Of a stretch of 64,000 bases of DNA, positions 2,756-62,205 are shown one piece after another. This stretch comes from a bacterium (GTDB lineage Bacteria > CLD3 > SB21): positions 1 to 64,000 of the forward strand of contig WBUR01000013.1 in the NCBI GenBank assembly GCA_008933615.1, read 5' to 3'. The translations under genes and the position numbers were made by a program. Each line of letters begins with the position of its first letter. The stretch's first letter is position 1. Under the pieces are notes generated by a model. The model ran no database searches and was not told the origin of the DNA. It worked only from the letters and a program-made list of their open reading frames with translations.

Positions 2756-3454
2756 ATGAATTCAGTGAAGTTCCTCATCATAGAAGCATTTATTTTTATT
2801 TTTTTTTGTTCTTCGGCTACTTCCGCGCAAGACGGCAAGACCGAAAGTTTTAACTCTATACACAAATCAAGATGGGCATTTCAATTAAGCGATGATTTTA
2901 GCTCAGTCATTTTACAATTAAAATATCATGTGTCTAACAACACAGCCATACGTTATGGGATACTTTTTGGTTTAGGAGGAACCGACGGCAAGGGCTCATT
3001 TCATAGACTACCAGTTGATACTATAACATCAAAAAGTAAAAATGAGTATGACGATTACACCATATCGAACCGAGTGGAGTTTCTATATTATCCCTACGCT
3101 GAAGACCATTTTGCCCTGTATTCCGGGTTTGGTCCTGAGTTGGGGTTCAGTCAATCAAAAGGGATCAACAAGCATGGGGATCCTAATTACTCCGGTAAAA
3201 GTGAGATGACGTCGAAATCTTGGTATACCGGAATAAATCTTCTAATGGGATTAGAATGGTTTCCCACAAAAAAAGTGAGTTTATTTACTGAATATGAACT
3301 TTATGCGTATTTCCAATCGGCACACCAGACCTATAGCGGCGAAAGCACAAGCACCTTGGAGCCGGAATCATGGGGCTACAAGGATAAGTATAAAAATACA
3401 GGTTATAGAACAGGTTCCAACGGCATGAGGCTTGGATTATCTCTGTATTGGTAA
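2756..3454 (+). CDS. Small outer-membrane beta-barrel protein, unknown role
   Basis: The protein is 232 residues with a signal peptide (hydrophobic core FLIIEAFIFIFFCSS, cut after TSAQ). Short alternating strands with many Tyr, Gly and Phe follow, and the last residue is Trp after GLSLY. The pattern is that of an 8- to 10-strand OmpA/OmpW-size barrel. ATG 2756 is preceded by GGAG at 2744-2747. No conserved functional motif is visible, and it appears to be transcribed alone, ahead of a stem-loop at 3484-3550. Confidence 0.65.
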   Translation: MNSVKFLIIEAFIFIFFCSSATSAQDGKTESFNSIHKSRWAFQLSDDFSSVILQLKYHVSNNTAIRYGILFGLGGTDGKGSFHRLPVDTITSKSKNEYDDYTISNRVEFLYYPYAEDHFALYSGFGPELGFSQSKGINKHGDPNYSGKSEMTSKSWYTGINLLMGLEWFPTKKVSLFTEYELYAYFQSAHQTYSGESTSTLEPESWGYKDKYKNTGYRTGSNGMRLGLSLYW

Positions 3455-3483
3455 AAGTCTAAGGACGTTAACTACGAATAGAT

Positions 3484-3561
3484 CCTGACGGTTGTGAGTC
3501 CACATTCAAGTTAGAAACCGCCAACTTTATTAAATTCGGCAACCGTCAGGAAGTTTTTTTT
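3484..3561 (+). terminator. Long inverted repeat with T-tract
   Basis: CCTGACGGTTG (3484-3494) pairs perfectly with CAACCGTCAGG (3540-3550), and a run of eight T begins at 3554. The 45-nt loop is long for a simple terminator, so it may be a terminator with internal structure or a cis-regulatory stem upstream of batD. Confidence 0.55.
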
Positions 3562-3664
3562 ACTAAAGGGTATTCGTGATAGTAAATGTACGAGTGCAAC
3601 AAATAGATATTGATAAAAACCCCCAACCTGATTATTTTTAGCCTACCTCTGAAAAAGAAATATC

Positions 3665-5455
3665 ATGGTCAGAAACATTATTATAATTTTAATTGTGTCT
3701 TTCGCAACGCACGTTCTGCAGGCGCAGAACGTTCGCTGCAGTGCGTCGGTGGAGAGAACGGTGATCGAGGCCGGAGAATCCTTCACGCTGACCGTCGAGA
3801 TCAGCGGAGATGATATTAATGTGACGGCGTATCCCCAGCTGCCGCCGCTCAAAGGCCTTGAAGCTATTTATGCCAATGCCGGAGAATCCACGTCCATTCA
3901 AATCATCAACGGCAAGAAAAGCGTTTCAAAAAGTTATCAGTTTTTGCTCCGCGCAAAAGAAGCCGGCAAATGGACAATACCGTCGATCAGTGTGGAAAAT
4001 AACGGAAGAGCTTATACCACACAGCCGCTCACCATCGAAGTCGTTCCGGCGGGCACGGTTTCAGGAAATCAAAACGCTTCTTTGTCGAAAGAGGTTTTTC
4101 TGGCAATCGTTTCAGCAAAAAAAGAGGCGTATGTGGGCGAACAGATCATGGTTTACCTGAAAATTTATACGCGCGTGAATATTACACAATATTCACCGAC
4201 GAAAACTCCGAATTTTACCGGATTCTGGGCGGAAGATTTCCCGATCAAACAACCGTTGGAACCGGAGCGCGAAATTCTAAACGGCGTTACGTATTCTACA
4301 TTTACCATTAAACGGACGGCTGTATTTCCAACGCATGCAGGAACTTTGAGTATTGATCCGGCAGAAATAGACTGCGAACTGCGCATTTCCAAAAAAGGGC
4401 GCAGCAATATGTTCGATGACTTTTTCTCACCTTTTGGTGATCCGTTCGGACAAGTTGTACAGACAAAACTCGTTTCCAATTCCGTTGACATCAAAGTGAA
4501 TGAGCTACCGGCAGAAAAACCGGCGAACTTCACCGGGTTGGTCGGTAATTTTGATGTCACGACTTCCGTCGATAAGGCGTCACTCAAGACCGGTGAGGCG
4601 GTGGTTTACAAAGTAGAGATCAGCGGTACGGGAAATATCATGTCAGCGGAAATTCCACCCAACCCATTTTCGGATGATTTTGAAAAATATGATCCAAAAT
4701 CGTCGGATGAGATCAATAAAAAAGGAAACCTGATCAGTGGGAAGAAAACTTTTGAATACGTGGCCGTTCCGCGCGCGAGCAGACAATTTGAAATACCACC
4801 GTACGTTTTTTCCTATTTTGATCCTTCGGCAAAAAAGTACATCACAAAATCTTCGTCATCGCATACGCTCGATATTGCGGTCGGCACAGGCGGTATTGCA
4901 AGCGGCGGCGGATTGTCAAAAGAAGAAATTGCTCTTCTGTCCAAAGACATCCGCTATATTAAATCCGACGTAGACGATTGGTTTCAAAGTGATCGCGGTT
5001 TTGTATATCGATGGTGGTTCATTCTTCTGTGGATCGTTCCGGCAGGCGCGTGGCTGAGTGGGAATCTATTTTTGAAGAGACGGGCGAGATCGTTGCAGGA
5101 TATTGAAGGAGCAAAATACAGGAAAGCCAGTCCATTGGCAAAAAAACGCCTGAAAACTGCTGAAAAATTAGTGAGGGAAAATAAGGTCGATACTTTTTAT
5201 GCCGAAATAGCCAAAACATTGAGCGGCTTGGCGGCGGACAAATTAAAAATTCCGGAAGCAAGTCTTATGAAAGAACTGCTGGAAGAGCGATTCCGAGAAA
5301 AGAGAGTTGACGAAGCGTTGATCAAAGAATATTTGGATTGCTTGCATATGTGCGATGAAGCGCGTTTTGCTCCGGAAAGCAAGTCTAAAGAAAAAATCGA
5401 TGAAGCGTATAACCGCATTCGTTCAGCTATACTGAATATGGACAAGGCAATATAA
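3665..5455 (+). CDS. batD: BatD-like protein, membrane-anchored aerotolerance-type protein
   Basis: The 596-residue protein has a signal peptide (IIIILIVSFATHVLQAQ), a long periplasmic part of repeated beta-sandwich modules starting at VRCSASVERTVIEAGESFTL, one membrane segment near residues 450-475 (WWFILLWIVPAGAWL), and a cytoplasmic helical tail. This architecture and the opening motif match BatD (oxygen-tolerance family). It is followed after 4 nt by a BatE-like gene. The usual partners MoxR, DUF58 protein, BatA and BatB are absent on either side. Role by family: part of a membrane complex linked to stress or cell-envelope integrity. Confidence 0.8.
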   Translation: MVRNIIIILIVSFATHVLQAQNVRCSASVERTVIEAGESFTLTVEISGDDINVTAYPQLPPLKGLEAIYANAGESTSIQIINGKKSVSKSYQFLLRAKEAGKWTIPSISVENNGRAYTTQPLTIEVVPAGTVSGNQNASLSKEVFLAIVSAKKEAYVGEQIMVYLKIYTRVNITQYSPTKTPNFTGFWAEDFPIKQPLEPEREILNGVTYSTFTIKRTAVFPTHAGTLSIDPAEIDCELRISKKGRSNMFDDFFSPFGDPFGQVVQTKLVSNSVDIKVNELPAEKPANFTGLVGNFDVTTSVDKASLKTGEAVVYKVEISGTGNIMSAEIPPNPFSDDFEKYDPKSSDEINKKGNLISGKKTFEYVAVPRASRQFEIPPYVFSYFDPSAKKYITKSSSSHTLDIAVGTGGIASGGGLSKEEIALLSKDIRYIKSDVDDWFQSDRGFVYRWWFILLWIVPAGAWLSGNLFLKRRARSLQDIEGAKYRKASPLAKKRLKTAEKLVRENKVDTFYAEIAKTLSGLAADKLKIPEASLMKELLEERFREKRVDEALIKEYLDCLHMCDEARFAPESKSKEKIDEAYNRIRSAILNMDKAI

Positions 5456-49684: not shown

Positions 49685-50323
49685 TTAAAACCCAAATAAT
49701 TTAGCATATGTTAGTTGTTTCATTCTAATCTCAATAGAATTTCCATATTTCTTTATTTTGATTAACGATTTTTTAATCCACTTCTGTCTGCCGTTATATT
49801 GGATTTTGATATCAGTCCCTGTCTCTATTAAGATCGCACTTGGTTCAAGCCACAGAACTTTGGTTTCTAAAGGATCGATACTTTCTTCATATACAAATTT
49901 ATGTTTAGATGCGACCGCCCCAATGACCGCCCCAATAGGTGCGAATCCGATACCTAAACCAATTGTGGCAAAACCTCTACCCCCTTCAAAAAAGATATCA
50001 CATAGGCCGGCAACTGTTGCCCCTGCGAAGAAACCCAGCACTGCTCCAGCAGCCTTATTGTTTCGATACGTAACGGATCTAATTGAGGAATTTTTGTAAG
50101 TATTGGTTCTATTATTGTCGTCCATCTTCACAGCAGCCGAGTCTATGCCAAACGTAACTTTTGAGTAATATTCGTTACCGTCTGTCATTAGTATTTTAGC
50201 CGATCTGTTCTTGTTAGCGCTGTTCAGAGAGTCAATGGTTGCATTTGGAGTATTGTCATTTAAAAATGATCGAGAAACACAACCTATTTGGGATATAAGG
50301 ATAACGCAAATTAGTGACTTCAT
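49685..50323 (-). CDS. Glycine-zipper lipoprotein, member of a local paralogue family
   Basis: The 212-residue protein has a lipobox (VILISQIGC) and a domain with short beta strands (KILMTDGNEYYSKVTFG, then SSIRSVTYRNN). A glycine-zipper pair (GAVLGFFAGATVAGL and IGLGIGFAPIGAVIGAV) follows, then a basic beta-rich end. The order beta-domain, Gly-zipper hairpin, beta-domain repeats in the genes at 51854, 52674 and 53497. GAGGTG precedes ATG 50323. Function unknown; zipper hairpins suggest insertion in a membrane. Confidence 0.62.
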   Translation of the reverse strand: MKSLICVILISQIGCVSRSFLNDNTPNATIDSLNSANKNRSAKILMTDGNEYYSKVTFGIDSAAVKMDDNNRTNTYKNSSIRSVTYRNNKAAGAVLGFFAGATVAGLCDIFFEGGRGFATIGLGIGFAPIGAVIGAVASKHKFVYEESIDPLETKVLWLEPSAILIETGTDIKIQYNGRQKWIKKSLIKIKKYGNSIEIRMKQLTYAKLFGF

Positions 50324-50548
50324 GGGCACCTCATCTTTATAAATCTAGCAAGCAGTTACGATGTCTCGCTTAAAGTTCTGCCTCACGTTACGATCCCAAA
50401 CAGCCGGACGTTGATCCGAACCCAGACTCATATACTAACATCTAGAATCATGTTATCTTGTTTTCCTTTTGATCCCAACTGCTTGTTGAAAATTACGGAA
50501 AGGCGGTTACACTTGTGATATACCTTAGCCACAGATACGCGACCATCT

Positions 50549-51073
50549 TTAATAATACAACTTGATTCCCAAGACATACCCAGTGTTCCCAAAATATATC
50601 ATTGGATCTATACTGACGCCTACTCTGTTATTATATCTATCCACTGCTTTTGAACTATGGGAGATACTTGTGATAGTGCCCAGTGCAATTGTCATGATTG
50701 CGGCTCCTTTGACAATGTTGCTAATAGTAGAAGGCTTGGCGGGTACATTGATCCAAGATAGAACACGCCCCAAGTTGAATTTTTGATTTTTTTCATAAGT
50801 ATAAAAACCGGCACCAATCAATCTTAATATTGCATCCGTAGTGATTTCAGATCTGTTATCGTGCGCATAGAACTGACCGACGGATGGCCCAACAACGATC
50901 CCTGAAGCAGTATACCATTTCTTGTTTAGGATAATAGCACCCGATGTTATAACTACTGTTGCCCCTAAATCAATCATAACAACGCTCGCCATGTTCTTTG
51001 ATGAAGAAAATCTAACCGGGTCTTGTGCAAGCAATTCGCCTACGACCAAAAAAAGGATCATGACAGTTCGCAT
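50549..51073 (-). CDS. Membrane protein, paralogue of the protein at 46298-46933
   Basis: The 174-residue protein has a signal peptide (MILFLVVGELLAQ) and hydrophobic segments VVMIDLGATVVITSGAIIL and IVKGAAIMTIALGTITSI. GPSVGQFYAHDN and the end YNNRVGVSIDPMIYFG correspond to blocks in the 46.3-kb protein. It is shorter, without the N-terminal spacer. No known family was recognised. Confidence 0.58.
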   Translation of the reverse strand: MRTVMILFLVVGELLAQDPVRFSSSKNMASVVMIDLGATVVITSGAIILNKKWYTASGIVVGPSVGQFYAHDNRSEITTDAILRLIGAGFYTYEKNQKFNLGRVLSWINVPAKPSTISNIVKGAAIMTIALGTITSISHSSKAVDRYNNRVGVSIDPMIYFGNTGYVLGIKLYY

Positions 51074-51170
51074 ACGTTCTTTTGTCTTTGTTAACAGATA
51101 GTTGTCTGACTATTACCAGAATGGTCAAAACACTTCCACGACTTCAAACAAATCAAGTAGTCAATTAAGT

Positions 51171-51794
51171 CTAATCCCTAACACAGCGAACGGAGTGACC
51201 ATAAGTTCTATAACTGAGTAGCTTGCCCACATTGATGTTATTGTAGAACAGGACACGGCCGAAAGCGCTTATTGAATCAGATTCCGTAGCTGACCACCAG
51301 CTACTACTCATTGCATTTAAGAAATATGTACCGTCGGCGAGACGATAACCGCCCGGCAGCGCTGTGAAGCCGGTCTCGTTAGTTGCTCCTGTGTTGGGAC
51401 TTGCCCAATGTGCTGTTCCGGCTTCTTTTAGTTTACCGCCCGCAACAGTTGCGCCGCCCAAGTAGGTTGAGAGAACTGTCCATTCGGTATCAGTCGGTAG
51501 ATGCCAGCCCGGAGGTGAGGCAGTTAGAGCCCTATTCCAAGTGTAAAGTCGGCCTAAGGTGTGATTAGCAGATGAGTCATTATTATTATACCATGAACTG
51601 TCTGCCGTACGGAAATCTAGATTTTCTGCCATCCATGTCTGTGTTCCTATGGTGACGGTTTGATATGCCCTGCCATCGCGTGGGTCAGTAAGTATATTAC
51701 TATCAAAATCCTTATCGGGATCATTTGAGCAGAAAAAATTTAGTGATGAGAATACAGACATCGATAACAAAATTAAGATGTGTTTTGTTTTCAT
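51171..51794 (-). CDS. Lipoprotein with a Fibrobacter succinogenes major domain
   Basis: The 207-residue protein has a lipobox (SVFSSLNFFC) and one Fib_succ_major domain with its usual line-up: DPRDGRAYQTVTIGTQTWMAENL (in parts), GRLYTWNRAL, PPGWHLPTDTEWTVL, TGFTALPGGYR, WWSATESDS and HSVRCVRD at the end. The domain is common in Fibrobacter and Bacteroidota surface proteins of unknown role, with a C-type-lectin-like look. A single gene on the minus strand. Confidence 0.88.
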   Translation of the reverse strand: MKTKHILILLSMSVFSSLNFFCSNDPDKDFDSNILTDPRDGRAYQTVTIGTQTWMAENLDFRTADSSWYNNNDSSANHTLGRLYTWNRALTASPPGWHLPTDTEWTVLSTYLGGATVAGGKLKEAGTAHWASPNTGATNETGFTALPGGYRLADGTYFLNAMSSSWWSATESDSISAFGRVLFYNNINVGKLLSYRTYGHSVRCVRD

Positions 51795-51853
51795 GATTTT
51801 TTCCTTAAAAAATTAAACTAAGGTGAATTAGATAGCATGCCTTGATTAGGTCA

Positions 51854-52630
51854 TCAATTTGAACTTAGGTCATCTTCAAAATAGTAGGATGCATCTTTTC
51901 CTATTATAGCTCCGACCGTACCTCCAATTACCAGTCCAACAGCTCCAAATATCATTCCATTATCCAAACTTGTATCTGGCCCAATATTAATCTCGTCCTC
52001 ATTGGGCGGTGTAAAACTGACCATTCCAAAAAGGCCTCCACCAAGCGCTCCAATTAATACGCCAGACAGTAAACCGGCTGAATGGCTTGTAAACGTTACA
52101 TGATCGATTTCAGATATATGGAGATTTCTTTGTGTAACCCCTTCTTTCCATGACAAGGTATCACCCGTAAGTTTTAGATCATACGCATTAAAGGCTTTGT
52201 GGTTTTTATAAACTACAACCGCTTTCTTACCTTGTGCCGATAAGTTGAATTCTTTTATGGTTACTGCCGAGTGTTTTGACTTGACTAAAACAATTTCTTC
52301 AATCTGTTCTATATTAACAGAGGCAATTCTATTCTCAGTGGCGCTCCAAGTCATCATTATCTTTAAGACATTTGAGGAATCAATAGCTAAGAGGGTTCCC
52401 TCTTTGAGCTGTTTTTCATTGGTGGTATTCAGATATTCTATGCGAATTACAGCGTCTGTTCCGGCATAAAGTTTTGCGACGACGGTTGGCGTAATTTTCT
52501 GATTGACATGTGGATCTACTATCCTGTTGGACGATGAACACGCTGCTGTGAATAAAAAAAACAAGCAAGTGTATTTATGCAAATTAAGTCTTTTAATGGT
52601 GTAGAGTAAGAAGGCTAAGTTTATTTTCAT
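51854..52630 (-). CDS. Glycine-zipper lipoprotein, paralogue family member
   Basis: The 258-residue protein has a lipobox (FLFTAAC) after a long N-region. A beta-rich domain at about 40-170 is followed by a glycine-zipper hairpin (GLLSGVLIGALGGGLFGMVS, then IFGAVGLVIGGTVGAIIG) near the C-terminus. The start is set at 52630; the frame is open further upstream but would overlap the next gene's end. Same layout as its neighbours, with low sequence identity. Confidence 0.6.
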   Translation of the reverse strand: MKINLAFLLYTIKRLNLHKYTCLFFLFTAACSSSNRIVDPHVNQKITPTVVAKLYAGTDAVIRIEYLNTTNEKQLKEGTLLAIDSSNVLKIMMTWSATENRIASVNIEQIEEIVLVKSKHSAVTIKEFNLSAQGKKAVVVYKNHKAFNAYDLKLTGDTLSWKEGVTQRNLHISEIDHVTFTSHSAGLLSGVLIGALGGGLFGMVSFTPPNEDEINIGPDTSLDNGMIFGAVGLVIGGTVGAIIGKDASYYFEDDLSSN

Positions 52631-52673
52631 CTTGATATCTCTATTTTTTGGTTTTGAGAAAAGCTGCCGGTAT

Positions 52674-53411
52674 TTATTTTTTAAAAATTTCTTCATAAAG
52701 TTTAGTTGGCAAAGCAAGAATGATTGAATCAGGTGTTCGTCTGACAATCTTCAAATCTGATTTCTTGAGCGAGACTGTCTTATCGCCGACGCGTATTTCG
52801 AATCCGCTATCTGTTTCCTGAATAATGTCTGAAAAAATGAATTCCGCAACTTTCCATTCTGTTTTAAATGTCAGGTGAGCAGAATTCTGTTCCGTGTCAG
52901 CCATCTTTTGGACGATCAACAATTTCTTTTCATAGGCGAGGTCGTTAAGTTTGTAGTTGACTCCGTCAGATAACACTCCAATGAGACCGCCGATAAGAAA
53001 TCCAAAAAATCCACCAAAGAATCCACCTAGGGCAGCTTCAGATCCTCGTTGCCCCTTGGGGGCATCGATTTTTGGCCCCGTAAGAAGTGGATCGTTAGGA
53101 TCATAAAGATAAGAGTCCCCTTTCGGTTTTTCGTAGCGTACGAAAGCAATTACGGCGCCTAATGTCACCCCAATTATAAATCCGCGCCCTGCGCCATTCA
53201 TGAAGGGAGAATTGTTAAGCATTTTGATATTGGAGATATCTGCCAGTGAAACCTTCTTCCGAGTATCTATCGCGACCGAATCGCCATCAACCTTCAAAGA
53301 TTTTGTTGAAATTTCCCGTCCATCGTTGAGTGTGATTTGCCAATTGTGATTTTGTGAATAGAGGAAAGGCCCAACATAAAAAAAAACAAAAAAAACACAT
53401 ATCGATTTCAT
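52674..53411 (-). CDS. Glycine-zipper envelope protein, close paralogue of the gene at 53497
   Basis: The 245-residue protein has a signal peptide (ICVFFVFFYVGPFLYSQ). NHNWQITLNDGREISTKSL and the C-terminal block KKSDLKIVRRTPDSIILALP match the next gene almost word for word. Two glycine-zipper hairpins lie between. AGGAGAACAT precedes ATG 53411. The pair arose by tandem duplication. Function unknown; the beta-domain resembles small envelope modules that read LNDG and VDGDSV. Confidence 0.62.
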   Translation of the reverse strand: MKSICVFFVFFYVGPFLYSQNHNWQITLNDGREISTKSLKVDGDSVAIDTRKKVSLADISNIKMLNNSPFMNGAGRGFIIGVTLGAVIAFVRYEKPKGDSYLYDPNDPLLTGPKIDAPKGQRGSEAALGGFFGGFFGFLIGGLIGVLSDGVNYKLNDLAYEKKLLIVQKMADTEQNSAHLTFKTEWKVAEFIFSDIIQETDSGFEIRVGDKTVSLKKSDLKIVRRTPDSIILALPTKLYEEIFKK

Positions 53412-53496
53412 ATGTTCTCCTATTTTGTTTCGGTTTACGTCAATGGACTTCACGAGGTGGTATTGGGCTCAACAGTTTGATTCCAAATTAACATCC

Positions 53497-54189
53497 TTAT
53501 TTATGAAAAGTTTTTTCATATAACCGAGTTGGCAAAGCCAAAATAATTGAATCGGCTGTTTTTCGCACAATCTTCAAATCTGATTTTTTGAGCAAGACCA
53601 TCTTACCGTTGATGCGAATTTCAATTGTATTATCAGTTTCGGTGCCGATGTTCGATAAACCTATTTCAATTGCTTTCCATACTTCTTCGTTTTGAGAAGT
53701 TAGAACACTAAGCAATTTCAATTTCTCATCTTGTGTCATTTTCGACAAATCGTGAACCTCGGCGCCGCCTTTCGACGCTCCAACAATTCCGCCTCCAATC
53801 ATTCCCAGAAGCCCTCCAATAAGCGCGCCGGCGACTAGGCTAGGTCCCGGTCCGAAATCCCAGTTTCCAAATCCTTCGGGGTCAGGCTCCGGCTCCTTAT
53901 AAGTTGACAAACCGACTAATCCGCCGATAACGACTCCCCCGAGAAAACCAATTCCCATACCTTTTCCAGCTTTCGATTTTTTGATTTTGCTAAGATGTGA
54001 GATAGATTCAATTGAAGTTTTATGCTCTGTTGTCGTCGTTACGAATACGACAGAATCACCCTCCAGTTGTAGCGATAGCGCTGAAACTTCCAGCCCGTCG
54101 TTAAATGTAATTTGCCAATGGTGATTTTGCGAAAGCAGGTCGAGTCCCGAATAAAAAAATAGAGTGAAGAGGATAAATAGCAGCTTCAT
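53497..54189 (-). CDS. Glycine-zipper envelope protein, close paralogue of the gene at 52674
   Basis: The 230-residue protein has a signal peptide (LLFILFTLFFYSGLDLLSQ) and NHHWQITFNDGLEVSALSL. Glycine-zipper segments are GMGIGFLGGVVIGGLVGL and VAGALIGGLLGMIGGGIVGA, and the end is KKSDLKIVRKTADSIILALP. AAAAGGAGGGCCT is an excellent ribosome binding site. It is the first gene after the island boundary on the minus strand. Function unknown. Confidence 0.62.
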   Translation of the reverse strand: MKLLFILFTLFFYSGLDLLSQNHHWQITFNDGLEVSALSLQLEGDSVVFVTTTTEHKTSIESISHLSKIKKSKAGKGMGIGFLGGVVIGGLVGLSTYKEPEPDPEGFGNWDFGPGPSLVAGALIGGLLGMIGGGIVGASKGGAEVHDLSKMTQDEKLKLLSVLTSQNEEVWKAIEIGLSNIGTETDNTIEIRINGKMVLLKKSDLKIVRKTADSIILALPTRLYEKTFHK

Positions 54190-54287: not shown

Positions 54288-54515
54288 GAGACTGGAGGAA
54301 GCTCCCGAATGGGATACAGAATTGGCCACAACGATATGATATTTCTTTATGGTACGGCAGGAATGCAATGATAATCAAGTTGAATTATTTTCAATTGTGA
54401 AAGAATTAGCATTTTTTTTGCTAAATTTTATCTAACCGGTGGTAGGAGAATCCTTATTTCTCAGCAGCATCCGCCGCCGTCGTAGAAATAAGTGGACTTG
54501 GGAACGTATTCGCAT
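54288..54515. repeat. Direct repeat B: orphan 3' end of an arsM-like gene plus downstream flank
   Basis: Read on the minus strand, the segment ends with codons YVPKSTYFYDGGGCC and TGA (54463-54461), matching the end of arsM at 61237. A 22-bp block (54460-54481) is identical to 61236-61257. Beyond the stop, GAATTAGCATT (54403-54413), GATATTTCT (54338-54346) and CCCGAATGG (54304) recur in order near arsM. Several codons differ only at silent positions, so this is a diverged homologue and not a fresh copy. Confidence 0.85.
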
Positions 54516-55262
54516 ATCGTAATATGAAACGAGAAAAACAGCGCCAAAGAAAAAGAGCATATAAGCAAGGCATATAAAAATTGATCTTTGTAAAGGAACA
54601 TTTGTGAAAGCAGCGCCCACTGATAACTGGGTTGGGTAATAAGCAGGTAATAACTGAATTATGATTTTGTTTCTTGCCTCCGATAAGATAAGTGGATTTT
54701 GTAGCCAGCCGGCATCTATATTTGCTAGCAGGATAACCGTCAATGTTCCTTCAAGGGCCCCATTGGTCATATAACCCACCAACATTCCATACCCGCCATA
54801 AATAAGTCCGTTAAATAACATACCCAAAAGCATCGGCCAAAAATATAGAGGCTGAAAAAAAAACTGTATAGAAAAGCTAATGCACAATACCAACAATACG
54901 ATAACAAAAAACATTACAGTCAATACAGATGACATTAGTTCTACAGGATTATAACCACAGATTACCAGCCTCCGGTTTACATTTTTGTATTGCTGAACAA
55001 GACTCAGAGACACGAAGGAAGATAAAAATCCGATGGTTGCCATCGAAACAAATATCAAGGACACATTTGCCTCTGTCGCTTTAATCATCGTTTTTGTTTC
55101 AGCAATGCCGATCTCGAATAAGATATCTTTTGCAGAACCAGTAAGCTGTACAGTAAAAATAAAAAGTGTAGGTGTGCCTACTAAAAGAAGTAAAACTAAT
55201 TTTTGACGCATCAACATCCTAAAATGCATACTAATGCTTGTAATAAGAAATCTCCCTCTCAT
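54432..55262 (-). CDS. ABC-2-type transporter permease with a captured C-terminus
   Basis: The 276-residue protein has six or so membrane helices (for example LVLLLLVGTPTLFIFTVQL and LLGMLFNGLIYGGYGMLVGY) and is the partner of the ATPase that overlaps it by 4 nt. The last 20-25 residues (SQVHLFLRRRRMLLRNKDSP and three more) are read from the orphan arsM tail in another frame, so the original stop has been lost or replaced. Half-size ABC-2 permeases of this length export lipids, peptides or natural products. Last gene of the island operon. Confidence 0.78.
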   Translation of the reverse strand: MRGRFLITSISMHFRMLMRQKLVLLLLVGTPTLFIFTVQLTGSAKDILFEIGIAETKTMIKATEANVSLIFVSMATIGFLSSFVSLSLVQQYKNVNRRLVICGYNPVELMSSVLTVMFFVIVLLVLCISFSIQFFFQPLYFWPMLLGMLFNGLIYGGYGMLVGYMTNGALEGTLTVILLANIDAGWLQNPLILSEARNKIIIQLLPAYYPTQLSVGAAFTNVPLQRSIFICLAYMLFFFGAVFLVSYYDMRIRSQVHLFLRRRRMLLRNKDSPTTG

Positions 55263-55864
55263 TGAAGACCTTCTTTTCTTAAAGTAAAAATATTGTCAAA
55301 TCTTTCTGGATCATTTAATAAATGTGTAACTAACAGGATGCATTTCCGCTGATCTTTCAATTGATACATCATTTCTCTGAAATGTTGATATGTCGCCATG
55401 TCAAAAGCGATATAAGGTTCATCAAGTATCAGAATATCAGGTTCGTGCAGCAATGCTATGGAGAGATTTAGTTTTTGTTGAGTTCCACCGCTCAAATGCT
55501 CAGCTCGGTAATACAAGTATTGTCTGAAACCAAGCTGATCCATCAAACTATCCCGCCTCGCTATCCACAGAGGCTTATTCTGTTTGTTCAAACCGTAGGC
55601 AGTTGCGAAATAGTTGAAATTTTCTTCTATAGTAAGCATAGAAAAAATGATGGGATTCTGCGGACAATAACCAGCTTTGCCATTTAAAATAACAGTACCT
55701 TTATCTGCGCTTAATTCGCCAATAAGGATCTTCAGCAATGTGGATTTACCGACTCCATTTTCGCCAACTACTGCATTGAGTGTGCCTGGGCCGATAGCAA
55801 AAGATATGTTATTCAGTATTTCTCTTTTACCGTATGACTTTGATATATTTAAAGCTTTTAGCAT
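55259..55864 (-). CDS. ABC transporter ATP-binding protein
   Basis: The 201-residue ATPase has all motifs: Walker A GENGVGKST, Q-loop in AGYCPQNP, signature LSGGTQQK, Walker B ILILDEP and the H-loop His in LLVTHL. It is shorter than most ATPases of ABC-2 systems because nothing follows the core. The last codons overlap the permease start (ATGA). It powers the transporter, which from its place in the operon may export the product of the lipid enzymes upstream. Confidence 0.92.
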   Translation of the reverse strand: MLKALNISKSYGKREILNNISFAIGPGTLNAVVGENGVGKSTLLKILIGELSADKGTVILNGKAGYCPQNPIIFSMLTIEENFNYFATAYGLNKQNKPLWIARRDSLMDQLGFRQYLYYRAEHLSGGTQQKLNLSIALLHEPDILILDEPYIAFDMATYQHFREMMYQLKDQRKCILLVTHLLNDPERFDNIFTLRKEGLQ

Positions 55865-55891
55865 GCTGAATAATTCATTTGGTTTAGTCTA

Positions 55892-56809
55892 CTATATTTC
55901 TTTCAGCAACTGATTGGGCTCTGGCTCATGAGTCAATCTTGGTCCTTTCCATAATCGTAAATAATTTTTAAAGAATGAGATCCTTCCTTCACCTGATCCG
56001 ATGAACTGAGGAAGGTGTAACCATGGAATTTTCGGATTTTGATGATGGGCAAGATGTAAATTAAAATTCAAGTATATCAGTCTTAGCCAGATTGGGATCT
56101 TTAGGTTATGAGCTCCATTGATTATGTCCCGCGGGCTGAAGGCATGATTTACATAATTCTGGGAAGACCACAAAAAGCCATGCATCGCAAATAACGTGAG
56201 CCATGATGTCCACTTGAGATCAAGAACAAAAAAAAGGGCTACCTGGACAATGATAACAAGTATGCTTTCCCATCTTGATTTAGCAACCTTATCTTTCCGG
56301 TCGCTCCCTTTCAAAAACCCACCAATTTCTTTATGCGAAGAGAAAAAGCGGGTGTAAATAAGCCCTGGCGCAAACGCGTATAATAGCACAGCAAGCCACA
56401 TAGAAAAATACCCAATCCCGATCATCATTCCATATAAGGTACCGTATCGTTTAAGTTTTTCCTGGTGTTCATAATACAAATCCCACATTTCTTCATCCGT
56501 CCGGTTTTTTTTATGATGCTTTAAATGGCAATGTTTAAAAAAGGTATAGGGTGCAATAAATAAAGTACTGAGCCATCTGCCCATAATATTATTCATAGAT
56601 TCATTTGGATTTATAATACTATGTTCAGCTTCATGTATAAGTGAGTAAACGGGTACCATTATTACGGCAAACAGAAAACCATACAAGAAAACCCATCCAT
56701 AATTGTGCACATGAGAGGCTGTCCATAATAGAGCAACGTAGGCACAACTGCACAAAATAGTTATTAGCAAGTTCATTTTTTCTGGTATTTTATATTGATC
56801 AGTAACCAT
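55892..56809 (-). CDS. Fatty-acid desaturase-family membrane diiron enzyme
   Basis: The 305-residue protein has four to six membrane segments and the three His boxes of membrane desaturases: HEAEH, HCHLKHHKK and HLAHHQNP. Spacing and length fit acyl-lipid or acyl-CoA/ACP desaturases rather than AlkB-type hydroxylases, which have a HELGH-type first box. It would put a double bond, or possibly a hydroxyl, into a fatty chain. It lies 11 nt downstream of the BtaA-like gene. Confidence 0.87.
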   Translation of the reverse strand: MVTDQYKIPEKMNLLITILCSCAYVALLWTASHVHNYGWVFLYGFLFAVIMVPVYSLIHEAEHSIINPNESMNNIMGRWLSTLFIAPYTFFKHCHLKHHKKNRTDEEMWDLYYEHQEKLKRYGTLYGMMIGIGYFSMWLAVLLYAFAPGLIYTRFFSSHKEIGGFLKGSDRKDKVAKSRWESILVIIVQVALFFVLDLKWTSWLTLFAMHGFLWSSQNYVNHAFSPRDIINGAHNLKIPIWLRLIYLNFNLHLAHHQNPKIPWLHLPQFIGSGEGRISFFKNYLRLWKGPRLTHEPEPNQLLKEI

Positions 56810-56820
56810 GGCTCGAAAGT

Positions 56821-57933
56821 TTATTCTTTATTAATAGTATAAGCGGCGACTTTCCCATATACAAAAGATCGGTCATTGAATTGGATTTCTTTGCTAAGTG
56901 TTTCATCTTTTACTATTGAATAACGCAAATCTTCAGGAACTTCCCGCGGAATCATCAGGTTACGAAAAATGATCCTTGAGTTTTTACGTGCAGTTCGGAA
57001 TACGGCCGAAAATAAGCGGTGCGTGTCTTTTTTACTCATCAGTTCGCATATATTGGATAATGCAAAACAGTTTATGCTTTCAGCCGACATAGAATCCAGC
57101 CAGCCTTGCGCATCCGCCGTAATAATCTTTATCCTGTCAACCCTTGATTTTATTAATTCAAAGTTTTCTCTTTTTAAATAGTCCGGCACTTCATTGTCAT
57201 TAGTATATTTGCCTAAGAGGTATAGCGACAAAAAATAATTTCCTTTTAAAGGAATATCCCTGAATACTTTTTTTGAGCGGTTATAAAAACTTTCGGCAAA
57301 TGATGTGCTCCCATCATCAAAATGAAAATAATCAGCTACCAAGCCACGTTTAGCCAACATTCGTTTATTAAATAAGATCTTGAACAGGTAATGAAAGCGT
57401 TTCGTATTCCATACTGTGTCAAAATAAGCTTCCTGTTCTTCTCTGGATTTTTCTTTGAATAAACCTATTACTCTTCTTTTTCCTTGCAATACATTAATGA
57501 ATTTACCTGCCAGACGTATAAACCGCTCATACTTGCCATTCATTAAAAATCCCTTCGTTAAAAGCTCTTGTCCATTCCAGAATAGAAGCGCTTCTTTACT
57601 TAAAAAAGGCTTCATCTTTTCGTATAAATTCAGTCTGTTGCCGTGCTCTTTTAACCCAGCAAATCTGATGAAATCATCAAACCCAAGAGATCGTATGGCT
57701 GCAATTTTTAATTCCAATAACCAGGATTGAGCTGGGTTAATATCAATACTGTAAATAATTTCAGGATCAGATAATAGAAAGCCAAGCACATTACATCCTC
57801 CTGATGTAATTGCCAATATTGCGTCATTGTTTCTTATTTTCAATGCGGCACGGTCGGCTTCGGGGTCTTCCCAATTATGGGTAAACACTAACTTAAATAA
57901 TTCTATCTGGTCTTTTACTTTTTTCATAAGCAT
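56821..57933 (-). CDS. DUF3419 / BtaA-like SAM-dependent 3-amino-3-carboxypropyltransferase
   Basis: The 370-residue protein has the BtaA signature: FTHNWEDPEADRAAL, then AITSGGCNVLGFLL and SIDINPAQSWLLELK, the SAM-binding region. BtaA moves the aminocarboxypropyl group of SAM onto diacylglycerol to make a homoserine ether lipid. No BtaB (N-methyltransferase) is next to it, so the product may stop at an unmethylated homoserine ether or the acceptor may differ. ATG 57933 is preferred over the in-frame ATG 57990, which would overlap the AAR-like gene. Confidence 0.85.
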   Translation of the reverse strand: MLMKKVKDQIELFKLVFTHNWEDPEADRAALKIRNNDAILAITSGGCNVLGFLLSDPEIIYSIDINPAQSWLLELKIAAIRSLGFDDFIRFAGLKEHGNRLNLYEKMKPFLSKEALLFWNGQELLTKGFLMNGKYERFIRLAGKFINVLQGKRRVIGLFKEKSREEQEAYFDTVWNTKRFHYLFKILFNKRMLAKRGLVADYFHFDDGSTSFAESFYNRSKKVFRDIPLKGNYFLSLYLLGKYTNDNEVPDYLKRENFELIKSRVDRIKIITADAQGWLDSMSAESINCFALSNICELMSKKDTHRLFSAVFRTARKNSRIIFRNLMIPREVPEDLRYSIVKDETLSKEIQFNDRSFVYGKVAAYTINKE

Positions 57934-57943
57934 CCGTCCATTG

Positions 57944-58999
57944 TTACCATAATCCATTTTCATTGTAGAATGGAGCAATATCAATTCCATGTTTTACACT
58001 TAAACTATAAATTTCTTCCATATTCTTAACTGTAATATTCCCTTTTCCGGCGGAATAAGTTTCAAATCTATTTTCAAATGCAAGAACCATAGCTTCCACT
58101 ATGCAGCCATGTATGATATATGGTGCTGCATAGCGATAAATAGTATTTGAATAATCGGGGCTGAATGTATATCCGTGGGTTACTTGGCCCATCCCGCCAT
58201 GAAATATTTTTAATCCATTATTGTTCTCAATCTTTGATTCTAAATTTTTAGGGTAACCTGCGTCACAGACAAGTACATCTTTTTTACAATCAGTCAGTTT
58301 TATTCCTGATGAACTGGCAGCACAAATTATAATGTCTGCTTCAGGAATCTGGTCCTGCACTGAAACAGCATAATTAACGGAGACATTTTCTTTACTTAAC
58401 TCCTGCGATAGTTTTTCCAACCGCTGATTATTTCTGGCGCACAAAAGAAGTTTTTTTACTTTATTTTTCAAGAAGTGTGAGCACGCCATTCCAATATCCC
58501 CGGTAGCGCCGATAATTAAAACAGCGGATCCCTGCAAATTAATTCTCTGTAGGATTGCAGCTTTCTCTACCCCTTTTACAATAAAGGCGGAGGTAAGAGT
58601 ATTGCCTGTTGTATATTGTGATTCACACCGGGCAAATGAATCAAGATTTCCTTCAAGAACAATTGAAGTGAATCCCCCGAGTGCTACGATCCGTGCACCC
58701 ATTTTATTTGCCCAGGCCGCTGCATTCATTACTTTACCGATATTCGTTCTGATAAATTGTGTATCTAATTTGTCGGGATCAATAAATGTTTCAATATATA
58801 CGCCGTTTATTACAGCGCCGGTTTTCGATCGCACCTTTACTCTGAAAAGATCCCTTGGAGGGATAAAAGAAAATATATCTTTAATTTTTTTAGAAGATAA
58901 TTCACCAATTCGGATACCATTTATAAACGTAGTAATATTCTGCCAATTATCCTGGTGTCCGATCACTGCAAAATCTAAGCTGGTAGACGGGCTATCCAT
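57944..58999 (-). CDS. Homologue of cyanobacterial long-chain acyl-ACP reductase (AAR)
   Basis: The 351-residue protein lines up along its length with cyanobacterial AAR: FAVIGHQ at the start, SKTGAVINGVYIET, ALGGFTSIVLEG, YTTGNTLTSAFIV, the NADPH motif GATGDIGMACSHFL, LLCARNNQRLEKL, DAGYPKNLESKI and CIVEAMVLAFENR. Cys-299 falls where the acyl-thioester Cys of the Synechococcus enzyme lies (ACFAEAM). It should reduce acyl-ACP to a fatty aldehyde. AGGAG stands 13 nt before ATG 58999, and the gene overlaps the ADO-like gene by 25 nt. Confidence 0.9.
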   Translation of the reverse strand: MDSPSTSLDFAVIGHQDNWQNITTFINGIRIGELSSKKIKDIFSFIPPRDLFRVKVRSKTGAVINGVYIETFIDPDKLDTQFIRTNIGKVMNAAAWANKMGARIVALGGFTSIVLEGNLDSFARCESQYTTGNTLTSAFIVKGVEKAAILQRINLQGSAVLIIGATGDIGMACSHFLKNKVKKLLLCARNNQRLEKLSQELSKENVSVNYAVSVQDQIPEADIIICAASSSGIKLTDCKKDVLVCDAGYPKNLESKIENNNGLKIFHGGMGQVTHGYTFSPDYSNTIYRYAAPYIIHGCIVEAMVLAFENRFETYSAGKGNITVKNMEEIYSLSVKHGIDIAPFYNENGLW

Positions 59000-59712
59000 A
59001 TAATAGATTTTTCTCCTGGTATTCCAATATTGTCCAATGACTGTGCGTAGAGTGCCATTGCATTGCCCCGTAAGCTTATAATGTTAAGCCCTATATGATG
59101 CATGGAGCCTTTCATACAGTCTCCGTTGCACACACCACAATGTCCTCGAAGGTCTGTTGTTGCAGTAAATTCTGCGAGGATGGTCATGCAATTTGTATGC
59201 AGCTCTTCAAACTTATCCAGGAATACTGAAGGGTTTTTTCCCAATTCTGCGCGTAGTAAATCGGAAGAGTGTTCGAGATGTTCTTTTTCTTCATCAGCAA
59301 TACTGAGAAAAAGTTTTCCAGCCTCACCCCCCAATGTATTACCTACATCGGTGTACATTGATACCGCAAATGATTCAAGCATTACTTCTTGTATGATAAG
59401 ACATGCAATAAAATCCTTTTTTTGAGCATAGGACAAAAATTGTTTGCGCACATTACCCCAATACTCACTATTCATATTGATTTTAATTTTCAATTTTGTC
59501 TTCTTTGCATAGGCGATAAAATCTTCTGCATGCATCCGCTCACTGTTGGCGTGTTCTACTGCTTCCATTTTTTCATGGGGGTCATCAATTGTTTCTGCCA
59601 GGGTTGCAAAATTGGACATTCCGATAAGCTCACCTGTGATAGCCTGGGAGAAAACATCTGAAATGACATTGAATTCTTCAATGCTCATTGCCTCTTTTAT
59701 TGCTTTTTCCAT
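58975..59712 (-). CDS. Homologue of cyanobacterial aldehyde-deformylating oxygenase (ADO) with a Cys motif
   Basis: The 245-residue ferritin-like protein keeps the six diiron ligands of ADO in the right places: Glu-28, Glu-58 with His-61 (NSERMHAEDF), Glu-113 (CLIIQEVMLESFAVSMY), and Glu-142 with His-145 (DEEKEHLEH). YAQSLDNIGI near the end matches the ADO motif YGEALENIGF. It differs by a CxxCxxxC motif (Cys-192, 195, 199) followed by HH at 205-206, which I do not find in cyanobacterial ADO. It would act on the aldehyde made by the overlapping AAR gene. Confidence 0.85.
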   Translation of the reverse strand: MEKAIKEAMSIEEFNVISDVFSQAITGELIGMSNFATLAETIDDPHEKMEAVEHANSERMHAEDFIAYAKKTKLKIKINMNSEYWGNVRKQFLSYAQKKDFIACLIIQEVMLESFAVSMYTDVGNTLGGEAGKLFLSIADEEKEHLEHSSDLLRAELGKNPSVFLDKFEELHTNCMTILAEFTATTDLRGHCGVCNGDCMKGSMHHIGLNIISLRGNAMALYAQSLDNIGIPGEKSIIWIARLPA

Positions 59713-59751
59713 GATTTAATAATTTTAGTGTTAATGGTCACATTTTGTTTC

Positions 59752-60804
59752 TCAAACTAAAGAATAATCTTGAAACGGTATTCCTTTTTTTACTTTTCCT
59801 ATAAGAGTTTTGTTGTCTTTTATGCTCAGCAACATCCCGACAGAATTGAAAGTCACTTTCAACAAACCGGAAAAGCACTTGTTATAAGGGTCTTTTTCAT
59901 GCAAACCGATCGAAGCAAAAATATAGGATCTTTCATACACGATATTCCTTACATGATTGATCATTAATTTTACGATCTGTTCATCCCTGTTATTCACGGC
60001 TAAATACTTTATATAGATCATCCGGACCGGTTCGTTTAATACAGGCATTTTTGAAATACCGGTTACCTGGCTGATAGCATTCATAACTGTGATAAGGAGT
60101 TTCATTTTCCATGACAGCCTTGTTACCACATTTTGTTTTACATGCATGGTATCTATTAAACAGACCGCGGCTATGATCTTATTTTTATTCCTGATAGCAA
60201 AAATATCGGTACCTTCTAGTTTTTCTTTCGTGATAACACTTCCCAATTCATATTTGCAGTAATGGGCATCAAAAAATTCAATTACTTCATCTGATATGGG
60301 TGATAATTCAATTGTATACTGTGGATGCAGGGGCTTTCCTTTTTTTCCAACAAACTGGTGAATTTTAAAGATCCCGATATTTTCAAAATCAGGTATGCCG
60401 GGTCTGTTTTTAAAAAACGAAAATGGTTTATTGTTTCCTTTTGAAACATTGAGAAATGCAAGATCGGCTCCTGTCGGTACAACGTAGTTTGCAAGCTCAT
60501 TACACAACTGTAAACCAATTCCCTTATTTCTGAATGATTCTGCCACCTTAAAATCGCCTACATAGTGAAGGGGAAAAATTTGTTCCCCCACATACACCTG
60601 TTGCAGGGAAACACATAGAAAACCGATAATTGTATCACCCTCCAATGCCACAAAAACTTTTGTCTGTCCCCGCATTTTCAGCAGGCTAAAAAAATCCGGT
60701 TTGCGGTCAATCCGCAGTGATATTTCTCCTATCATACCGGAAGCTGCAGTTAGCTCAACTAATTGCTGATTATCGTTATTAGTTGCTAATCGGTATTCGA
60801 TCAT
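59752..60804 (-). CDS. GNAT-family acetyl/acyltransferase, first gene of the island operon
   Basis: The 350-residue protein begins with a GNAT domain (about 1-150): RLATNNDNQQLVEL, the acyl-CoA loop VAESFRNKGIGLQLCNEL, and AFLNVSKGNNKPFSFFKN. A second half of similar size may be a degenerate GNAT fold (IKYLAVNNRDEQIVKL). It would transfer an acyl group to an amine, possibly that of an aminocarboxypropyl or homoserine moiety; this is inference. A 16-nt palindrome lies 58 nt upstream. Confidence 0.78.
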   Translation of the reverse strand: MIEYRLATNNDNQQLVELTAASGMIGEISLRIDRKPDFFSLLKMRGQTKVFVALEGDTIIGFLCVSLQQVYVGEQIFPLHYVGDFKVAESFRNKGIGLQLCNELANYVVPTGADLAFLNVSKGNNKPFSFFKNRPGIPDFENIGIFKIHQFVGKKGKPLHPQYTIELSPISDEVIEFFDAHYCKYELGSVITKEKLEGTDIFAIRNKNKIIAAVCLIDTMHVKQNVVTRLSWKMKLLITVMNAISQVTGISKMPVLNEPVRMIYIKYLAVNNRDEQIVKLMINHVRNIVYERSYIFASIGLHEKDPYNKCFSGLLKVTFNSVGMLLSIKDNKTLIGKVKKGIPFQDYSLV

Positions 60805-60956: not shown

Positions 60957-61290
60957 GGGACTGATTGACATGCCCGGAATGGCATCAGAGGTGGTAGACA
61001 GAGATATTAATTAATAGATATTTCTATGGTAGGGCTGAAGTGTCTGAAAGTCAAATTATATTATTTGCAGCGTGTGAATGAATTAGCATTCTAATGTGGG
61101 TACGTGCTTAGAATCGCCGGCCAGATGTTTTTTTAGATCACCATCGTTCGAGAAGTAAAGAGTTCGATAAAGTACCGTGGAATGTATCGCGGAATTTCAT
61201 TCCGCGTCTGCCTATAAGAACCCTTATCGCAGTAACTCAGCAGCATCCGCCGCCGTCATAAAAATAAGTCGATTCGGAGACATAGATATC
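60957..61290. repeat. Direct repeat A: 3' end of intact arsM plus downstream flank
   Basis: This is the counterpart of repeat B. In order on the plus strand it has CCCGGAATGG (60973), GATATTTCT (61017), GAATTAGCATT (61080-61090), AGAACCCTTAT and the 22-bp block 61236-61257. It is about 100 bp longer than repeat B between GAATTAGCATT and the arsM stop; the extra part includes the hairpin at 61188-61206. Confidence 0.82.
61188..61206. other. Perfect hairpin CGCGGAAT-TTC-ATTCCGCG
   Basis: An 8-bp perfect inverted repeat with a 3-nt loop, 31 bp after the arsM stop. No T-tract follows on either strand, so it is a weak terminator at most. It may stabilise the arsM mRNA end or be a small extragenic palindrome absent from repeat B. 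Confidence 0.5.
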
Positions 61291-62205
61291 GCTCCGGTGC
61301 AGAGATAATAATGCCTTGGCCGTTTTGTCACAAACAGCTAACGGCTGATTATAATTCAGTACATGTCCTTTTCGGTCGTCAAAATATTCTTCATTGCCGA
61401 AATAGATCGCCGTTCGTCCGGTGAAAACACACGGCCCGTCCTGCGGCATAGGATCTTTAATCGCGCAAATTTCGACGCTTTCGATGTGAATGATCTCGTC
61501 CGTTTCATAATGTCCCGGATCCAGAATACGGTAAGGCCGGCGGGCACGAACCTCGATCGTACCGAAACCGATGTCCGTGATCGTTCGGATATAATCGCTG
61601 AGCGTCATGGAACCGCTCAGGCACAGCGCGCGCAGCTTGGCGTCTTCCCGCAGGTTATCCGGGATCGTGTGATCGCACACCGGATCGGACAAAACCAAGC
61701 GGCCGTACGGTTTCAGAACGCGGTACATTTCCTGCAAAGCCCGTTTAAGATCATCCATCTTAAAAATATTGAACAGACAATTTTGTGCGGCGACATCCAC
61801 GCTGTTGGCCACAATCGGCAGGTCAAGCGCACTGCCGCGGCGCAGGTCAATAAATTCCGGCCGAAACCACGAGTTCACCTTAGCCGCATCGTGCAGATTC
61901 TCTTTGCACGCGGCGACCATCTCCGGAACAATATCCACACCGATCACGCCCTGGGGCCTGCGGCTGAAATAAGAAAACTGGAGCAGTTCCATGCCGCCGC
62001 CGACTCCGACATATAGGATCGTCGGATCGTTCACCAGATCGCGGGGATTAACGGTACTGCCGCAGCCATAATTCATTTCCAGCATTTTCCGCGGAACTTT
62101 CAGATCGGGCAACTGCCATACGGGCGTGGTCGTGCAGCAAAGCCCTTGGTTCGGATTCAGCGCGGCATCTTTGTAAACATTGTTCGTTGCATCGAGATAA
62201 CTCAT
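61237..62205 (-). CDS. arsM: Arsenite S-adenosylmethionine methyltransferase of the arsenosugar type (ArsM)
   Basis: The 322-residue class I methyltransferase has LYVGVGGGMELLQFSYF as its SAM-binding motif. Cys residues that can bind As(III) lie in GLCCTTTP, NYGCGSTV and AAQNCLFN, and the end is GGGCC. The opening YLDATNNVYKDAAL and the GGGCC end are traits of the arsenosugar-biosynthesis ArsM group. It methylates arsenite with SAM. No radical-SAM ArsS gene is in the window. AAGGAG precedes ATG 62205. The island begins just after its 3' end. Confidence 0.88.
   Translation of the reverse strand: MSYLDATNNVYKDAALNPNQGLCCTTTPVWQLPDLKVPRKMLEMNYGCGSTVNPRDLVNDPTILYVGVGGGMELLQFSYFSRRPQGVIGVDIVPEMVAACKENLHDAAKVNSWFRPEFIDLRRGSALDLPIVANSVDVAAQNCLFNIFKMDDLKRALQEMYRVLKPYGRLVLSDPVCDHTIPDNLREDAKLRALCLSGSMTLSDYIRTITDIGFGTIEVRARRPYRILDPGHYETDEIIHIESVEICAIKDPMPQDGPCVFTGRTAIYFGNEEYFDDRKGHVLNYNQPLAVCDKTAKALLSLHRSDIYVSESTYFYDGGGCC

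Follow-up and report, generated by a model that had tools for sequence, protein, structure and literature searches.

The closest described systems to the locus reported here are the cyanobacterial pair of acyl-acyl carrier protein reductase (AAR) and aldehyde-deformylating oxygenase (ADO) (Synechococcus elongatus orf1594 and orf1593; PDB 6JZU and 4RC5), BtaA of diacylglyceryltrimethylhomoserine (DGTS) synthesis (PF11899), PigE of prodigiosin synthesis, in which an AAR-like reductase is fused to an aminotransferase, and the N-myristoyltransferases. Relatives of these enzymes were found together in one operon on the minus strand of a 64,000-nucleotide stretch of bacterial DNA (GTDB lineage Bacteria; CLD3; SB21; assembly GCA_008933615.1, contig WBUR01000013.1, positions 1 to 64,000), the whole of which is referred to as the window. 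The operon is confirmed as real, conserved and laterally moved. It is best explained as an operon for lipid biosynthesis, of a type seen in Bacteroidota and spread by horizontal transfer, with a GNAT-ADO-AAR-DUF3419 core and a desaturase in about half of the loci. On present sequence evidence its first steps would work like the cyanobacterial aldehyde pathway.

With the cyanobacterial pair the operon shares the order ado then aar, adjacent and on the same strand, together with the folds, the catalytic cysteine, the NADPH loop and the di-iron ligands. It differs in the identity of its proteins (~20-25% for ADO and ~35% for AAR, both under the equivalog cut-offs), in a remodelled tunnel, a triple-cysteine loop and a 25-nt overlap of the two genes, and in being a Bacteroidota operon with GNAT in all listed loci and DUF3419 wherever the contig reaches. 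BtaA is matched by a full-length DUF3419 protein, but the operon has no BtaB in the cluster, and its DUF3419 falls in a separate clade with AAR, ADO and GNAT as partners. The AAR-like reductase domain is shared with PigE, whereas the operon has no aminotransferase and its AAR groups with cyanobacterial AAR, not with the fused or long AAR-like proteins. The whole tandem GNAT fold is shared with N-myristoyltransferase, at ~11% identity. No description of AAR or ADO in Bacteroidota, of this operon, or of any pathway with this set (an earlier note on this DNA knew of none either) was found in the open-access literature, subscription journals being outside the coverage, and the operon is apparently undescribed in the open literature.

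Layout and conservation of the operon

Seven open reading frames were found on the minus strand in the order, 5' to 3', GNAT, ADO-like, AAR-like, DUF3419, desaturase, ABC ATPase and ABC permease (Table 1), at the positions given in the earlier note. Its family names were borne out by Pfam and NCBIfam scans; these supported every operon protein except the permease, which had no match in either. The spacing it described also stood, with overlaps of ADO with AAR (25 nt) and of ABC ATPase with permease (4 nt) and remaining gaps of 11-40 nt, save for one correction. The DUF3419 frame was first called from 57990; the true start is probably Met22 at 57927, since every relative begins there, and the AAR/DUF3419 overlap is therefore not real. 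At the other end of the operon, the last ~25 codons of the permease frame lie inside a repeat and the host flank (host-homologous up to 54508), and because the reading frame finishes within host flank sequence, the 3' end of this gene may be damaged or truncated.

Table 1. Features of the cassette and its insertion site, with positions in the window
Feature	Positions	Strand	Family match or remark
GNAT acyltransferase, tandem, 350 aa	59752..60804	-	Pfam Acetyltransf_1; leads the conserved core
ADO-like ferritin-fold di-iron protein, 245 aa	58975..59712	-	PF11266, 49 bits (cut-off 28)
AAR-like acyl-thioester reductase, 351 aa	57944..58999	-	TIGR04058, 204 bits, E 4e-60
DUF3419 (BtaA-like), predicted S-adenosylmethionine (SAM) 3-amino-3-carboxypropyl transferase, 368 aa from the probable corrected start	56821..57927	-	PF11899, 248 bits (cut-off 28.2)
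Membrane fatty-acid-desaturase-family protein, 305 aa	55892..56809	-	PF00487, 85 bits; optional operon member
ABC ATPase, 201 aa	55259..55864	-	ABC_tran, 94 bits; window-specific
Probable ABC-2-type permease, 276 aa	54432..55262	-	Window-specific
Distal copy of the 49-bp arsM 3'-end repeat	54460..54508	-	Left insert boundary; 84% identical to 61236-61284
Proximal repeat copy, arsM 3' end	61236..61284	-	Right insert boundary
arsM, host gene	61237..62205	-	NF038099, 552 bits (cut-off 400); insertion target, outside the pathway

An ADO alignment was used for a pattern scan of 84,980 species genomes and recovered the ADO-like gene, at 56-82% identity, in at least 15 loci of Bacteroidota; below these, among the matches listed, a wide gap was followed by cyanobacterial ADO only, at 20-29%. 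The listed loci span Chitinophagaceae, Flavobacteriaceae and Cyclobacteriaceae. GNAT, ADO and AAR occur together in 15/15 of them, an association far beyond chance for independent loci. DUF3419 follows AAR in 13 of the 15, the contig stopping right after AAR in the other 2, and the desaturase is present in 7 (45-75% identical to that of the window, one apparently broken). The 25-nt ADO/AAR overlap is kept in every listed locus but L103, where an AhpC/TSA-family gene stands between the two, and in L104 the GNAT gene has shifted to the last place and a START-domain lipid-binding gene (3329-3967) lies within the cluster. Since the genes remain clustered through these changes of order, the core genes are probably functionally linked. 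A START-domain gene also follows the cluster in L095 (11843-12487).

The co-occurrence of AAR, ADO and DUF3419 genes, which the earlier note had proposed to look for across genomes, is found in Bacteroidota as a set conserved together with GNAT and often with the desaturase. Its inclusion of the two-gene ABC exporter in the pathway was not upheld: no homologue of the pair was found in the cluster of any of the 15 listed loci, the export claim comes from one locus with a possibly truncated permease, and the exporter was dropped as a general pathway member.

Of 395 genomes sampled evenly from the class of Algoriphagus zhangzhouensis, 2 were positive, A. zhangzhouensis itself and A. boritolerans, and the ADO-like gene is therefore rare and patchy; it was absent from the other 8 genomes examined of the host phylum. 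Full-length AAR-like proteins were common among 386 genomes taken domain-wide, in which ADO adjoined AAR just in the window genome and in three genomes grouping with cyanobacteria. Viral contigs held no relatives of ADO or DUF3419, plasmids held no ADO and had AAR matches to PigE-like domains only, and no DUF3419, GNAT or desaturase was found within the ~8 kb flanks of 57 cyanobacterial ado-aar loci.

The operon proteins and their relatives

The AAR-like protein of the window was matched to PDB 6JZQ (E 1.7e-44), to TIGR04058 over residues 10-339 at a score under the equivalog cut-off of 449.7, and to NF053554 (PigE) at 106 bits. In the tree the operon AARs cluster as a single clade whose sister is cyanobacterial AAR (support 100/99), and 35 other AAR-like proteins fall apart from both. 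The roles of the AAR residues (acylation of Cys294, the NADPH loop and arginines, and others) were taken from PMC7089970. The catalytic cysteine is Cys299 (C294 of S. elongatus) and GATGDIG stands at 164-170; among the 16 operon proteins the equivalents of C294, Y247, H7 and R189 are invariant, GATGDIG is kept (A163 being replaced by S in four), the R193 equivalent is present in 10, and the R314 position holds either R or K throughout.

For the model of the ADO-like protein (predicted local distance difference test, pLDDT, 91.6), the top 26 PDB matches were all ADO, at E 6e-8 to 1.5e-5, and the next fold family appeared at E 1.9e-3. The match to TIGR04059 was 50 bits against an equivalog cut-off of 222.65, all 16 members matching this model weakly, and weak NCBIfam matches to encapsulin ferritin-like cargo families were also recorded. 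The di-iron ligands E32, E60, H63, E115, E144 and H147 are invariant in 16/16 operon and 68/68 cyanobacterial rows, and G31, A118, F117 (or Y) and Y122, near the iron or the aldehyde, are kept. Both proteins are genuine homologues of the cyanobacterial enzymes, as the earlier note had read them. It had named grouping outside the known enzymes with changed active sites as the outcome that would speak against it; the proteins do lie outside the cyanobacterial clades, below the equivalog cut-offs and with a changed tunnel, but their catalytic centres are intact. Because neither AAR nor ADO reaches its NCBIfam equivalog cut-off, the two are best called, by sequence, sister lineages of the cyanobacterial enzymes and not orthologues.

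The tunnel of the ADO-like protein carries the changes I27 to Q, V28 to A, A121 to M and F87 to W, all invariant or nearly so, as well as F86 to Y and a replacement of C70, mostly by Y, in 15/16. Cyanobacterial ADO is less active on C14-C18 aldehydes when bulky changes are made at 27, 28, 70, 118, 121 and 198, and its A121F variant favours C4-C7 (PMC5007808). The pattern suggests that the operon enzyme uses shorter or medium-length chains, or functionalised ones, and not plain C16/C18 aldehyde. An insertion between helices 161-182 and 204-207, absent from cyanobacterial ADO, holds the loop HCGVCNGDCMK (residues 190-201; window 59140-59100) with the motif C192-x2-C195-x3-C199, the cysteines of which are invariant in 16/16; it comes after residue 180, the counterpart of W178, which in S. 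elongatus ADO lies over the entrance to the tunnel. Metal binding, redox or docking of AAR are guesses at the role of this loop.

BtaA links the aminocarboxypropyl unit to a hydroxyl as an ether. The unit that it transfers comes from SAM (PMC10491745). The operon DUF3419 proteins form their own clade (99/99), placed weakly beside the BtaA group (82/75), and are 25-32% identical to DUF3419 proteins elsewhere; no solved structure similar by sequence was found. BtaB adjoins other DUF3419 genes at L089 and L090, and DUF3419 neighbourhoods elsewhere hold mostly BtaB or unrelated genes. No BtaB was found in the window operon or in the clusters of the 15 listed relatives, the remaining genome not having been searched. 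In a separate observation, a different DUF3419 gene of a cyanobacterium (G330, L084 3994-9495) has as neighbours two GNAT-like genes, one AMP-ligase-like gene and one for a polytopic membrane protein that by eye resembles phytol-kinase-type proteins.

The AlphaFold2 model of the GNAT protein (pLDDT 91.9) has a tandem GNAT fold whose nearest PDB entries are N-myristoyltransferases (TMq ~0.63), and this modelled fold fits fatty N-acylation. The desaturase has the histidine boxes HEAEH, HCHLKHH and HLAHH, which are invariant or nearly so among intact relatives.

Another operon of cyanobacteria, with the genes desaturase, haem-oxygenase-like di-iron oxidase (HDO), DUF3419 and GNAT, was observed at L092 8795-12357, L187 5636-9282 and L188 5715-9300; it is conserved in three families, and a close DUF3419 was found in 3/244 genomes sampled. 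By profile comparison with the window, DUF3419 proteins (E 2e-29), desaturases (E 6e-11) and the N-terminal halves of the GNAT proteins (E 7e-7; hhalign 92%) are related. Both operons join DUF3419, GNAT and a desaturase to a non-haem di-iron enzyme, but the cyanobacterial one has no AAR, its di-iron enzyme is of an unrelated, CADD-like fold, and it is non-orthologous, its DUF3419 lying on a very long separate branch. UndA, a member of the haem-oxygenase-like superfamily, is given as a fatty acid decarboxylase in PMC13108848, and the oxidase of this operon is nearer by sequence to CADD than to UndA. The long DUF3419 branch and the other di-iron fold weakened its candidacy as a close homologue, and it was kept as an analogy only, by which DUF3419, GNAT and a desaturase would have become associated with a non-haem di-iron enzyme twice.

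Proposed pathway and alternatives

The evidence supports in outline that cyanobacterial-type aldehyde chemistry is coupled to amino-lipid modification. In the proposed pathway, AAR would form an acyl-enzyme on Cys299 and reduce it with NADPH; from the conserved catalytic residues it very probably makes an aldehyde. The aldehyde would pass to the ADO-like di-iron enzyme, which probably deformylates it, C1 being lost as formate and the chain becoming one carbon shorter. By analogy with BtaA, DUF3419 is likely to transfer the 3-amino-3-carboxypropyl (homoserine) unit of SAM, in this case to a nucleophile of the lipid intermediate. The myristoyltransferase-like GNAT would then acylate the free amine, and an N-acylation with a fatty acyl group is given an even chance on the basis of its modelled fold. 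Where encoded, the desaturase would introduce unsaturation, and in the window genome alone export by the ABC pair may follow. This pathway would be expected to yield a lipid that bears an amino acid and owes its hydrocarbon part to AAR and ADO; free alkane or alkene might be made alongside it. That AAR, ADO, DUF3419 and GNAT all act on one product is rather likely. As an overall explanation, AAR/ADO aldehyde chemistry feeding an amino-acid-bearing lipid is the best available and is held tentatively, at somewhat short of an even chance.

Several points weigh against this explanation. A plain alkane would offer neither DUF3419 nor GNAT a group to modify, and at least one of the family-based functions may therefore differ here. 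The ADO-like protein is far from the characterised enzymes (20-25% identity), and its second shell is changed (Y39F, with R62 lost). Only one activity has been tested in the large DUF3419 family; the match to N-myristoyltransferase is in part a general trait of tandem GNATs, rank 16 being taken by an Eis-like acetyltransferase; and the desaturase is missing in about half of the listed loci. The difficulty of the plain alkane would be resolved by a chain with a second functional group, by an ADO-like enzyme doing other chemistry, or by two products.

The best placed of the rivals, though unlikely, is that the ADO-like enzyme is no longer a deformylase and instead hydroxylates or oxidises, the aldehyde or alcohol from AAR being converted by DUF3419 to an O-alkyl homoserine ether that GNAT then N-acylates. 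Such a route avoids the pure alkane that would be a dead end for DUF3419 and GNAT, agrees with the ether that BtaA is generally known to form to a hydroxyl, and would account for the invariant tunnel and second-shell changes, the triple-cysteine loop beside the tunnel mouth and the weak encapsulin-cargo matches. It is opposed by the retention in 16/16 of the six metal ligands and of the residues nearest the aldehyde, by structure matches below E 1e-3 that are to ADO alone, and by the position of the gene next to AAR with the conserved 25-nt overlap, the inserted gene of L103 excepted.

A slightly more doubtful rival has the operon making two products, alkanes or alkenes for the membrane by AAR and ADO and a separate homoserine amino lipid by DUF3419 and GNAT, both of which would remodel the membrane. 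Each half then corresponds to a known function, cyanobacterial alkanes being membrane components, and DUF3419 groups, if weakly (82/75), with BtaA-type genes that stand next to a BtaB gene. On the other hand, the operon has no BtaB methyltransferase, the tunnel is altered at positions that normally accept C16-C18, and the tight co-conservation, kept even through rearrangement, suggests a single pathway.

The single-pathway explanation, with aldehyde chemistry feeding an amino-acid-bearing lipid, can also be written in a more specific form as an undescribed class of amino ether lipid, in which AAR would reduce a 3-hydroxyacyl thioester to a 3-hydroxyaldehyde, the remodelled ADO would deformylate this to a secondary alcohol (2-alkanol), DUF3419 would place the homoserine unit of SAM on the hydroxyl and the myristoyltransferase-like GNAT would acylate the amine. 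3-Hydroxyacyl thioesters are abundant in Bacteroidota. This form is improbable as it stands, a little more so than the two-product rival; it reconciles an enzyme that removes C1 with partners that require a nucleophile, and, if true, it would turn the 'alkane' enzymes into a chain-trimming step of lipid assembly.

Insertion at arsM and meaning of the locus

The cassette (~6.7 kb) entered the host chromosome at the 3' end of arsM, a gene of the arsenosugar-type arsenite methyltransferase family that is 96/95% identical in same-genus genomes. Its GC content is 37.2%, against 44.5% in the remaining window, where the lowest value of any other stretch of cassette size is 40.9%. It is flanked by 49-bp repeats, of which the proximal copy is the final 49 bp of arsM, and the repeat has just two copies across the whole genome. 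One same-genus genome (G002) has the empty site, its left and right flanks meeting in one common 48-bp stretch, and another (G001) carries other cargo after the end of arsM (MerR, MerT/HMA and CopZ-type zinc-binding genes) and has additional fragments of the arsM 3' end. The differing contents of the site (AAR/ADO cassette in the window, metal cassette in G001, empty in G002) suggest that insertions have occurred repeatedly at the arsM 3' end within this genus. The family scan of the window proteins showed no recombinase within the insert. An assembly artefact or chance neighbourhood, to which the differing GC content of the insert and the multi-contig source assembly (97 contigs) could point, is highly improbable: the gene set recurs in at least 15 other genomes, including the named isolates Algoriphagus zhangzhouensis DSM 25035 and Aestuariibaculum sediminum TT11, and misassembly was rejected on the two non-identical repeat copies (84%) and the same-genus empty site, which are unlike a repeat-collapse join.

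Sites of the arsM 3'-end insertion point were recorded at L197 678-725 and 5144-5192, L198 8178-8225 and L201 2261-2482. Beside the cassette, at 49685-54189 of the window, neighbouring minus-strand open reading frames with related glycine-rich membrane segments resemble a variable region, and a FISUMP-like protein is encoded at 51171-51794, near the insertion.

The AAR/ADO pair has been treated as the cyanobacterial alkane route, whereas here it forms a deep sister lineage in scattered Bacteroidota and one other small phylum, fixed with two or three enzymes that are not in the cyanobacterial loci. Its natural ADO sequences, in which the tunnel is altered and the catalytic centre intact, are useful for the problems of substrate range and slow turnover of ADO. 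The operon also gives a genetic handle on DUF3419 enzymes besides BtaA and a testable lipid pathway in culturable strains, and the pathway moves between phyla as one cassette.

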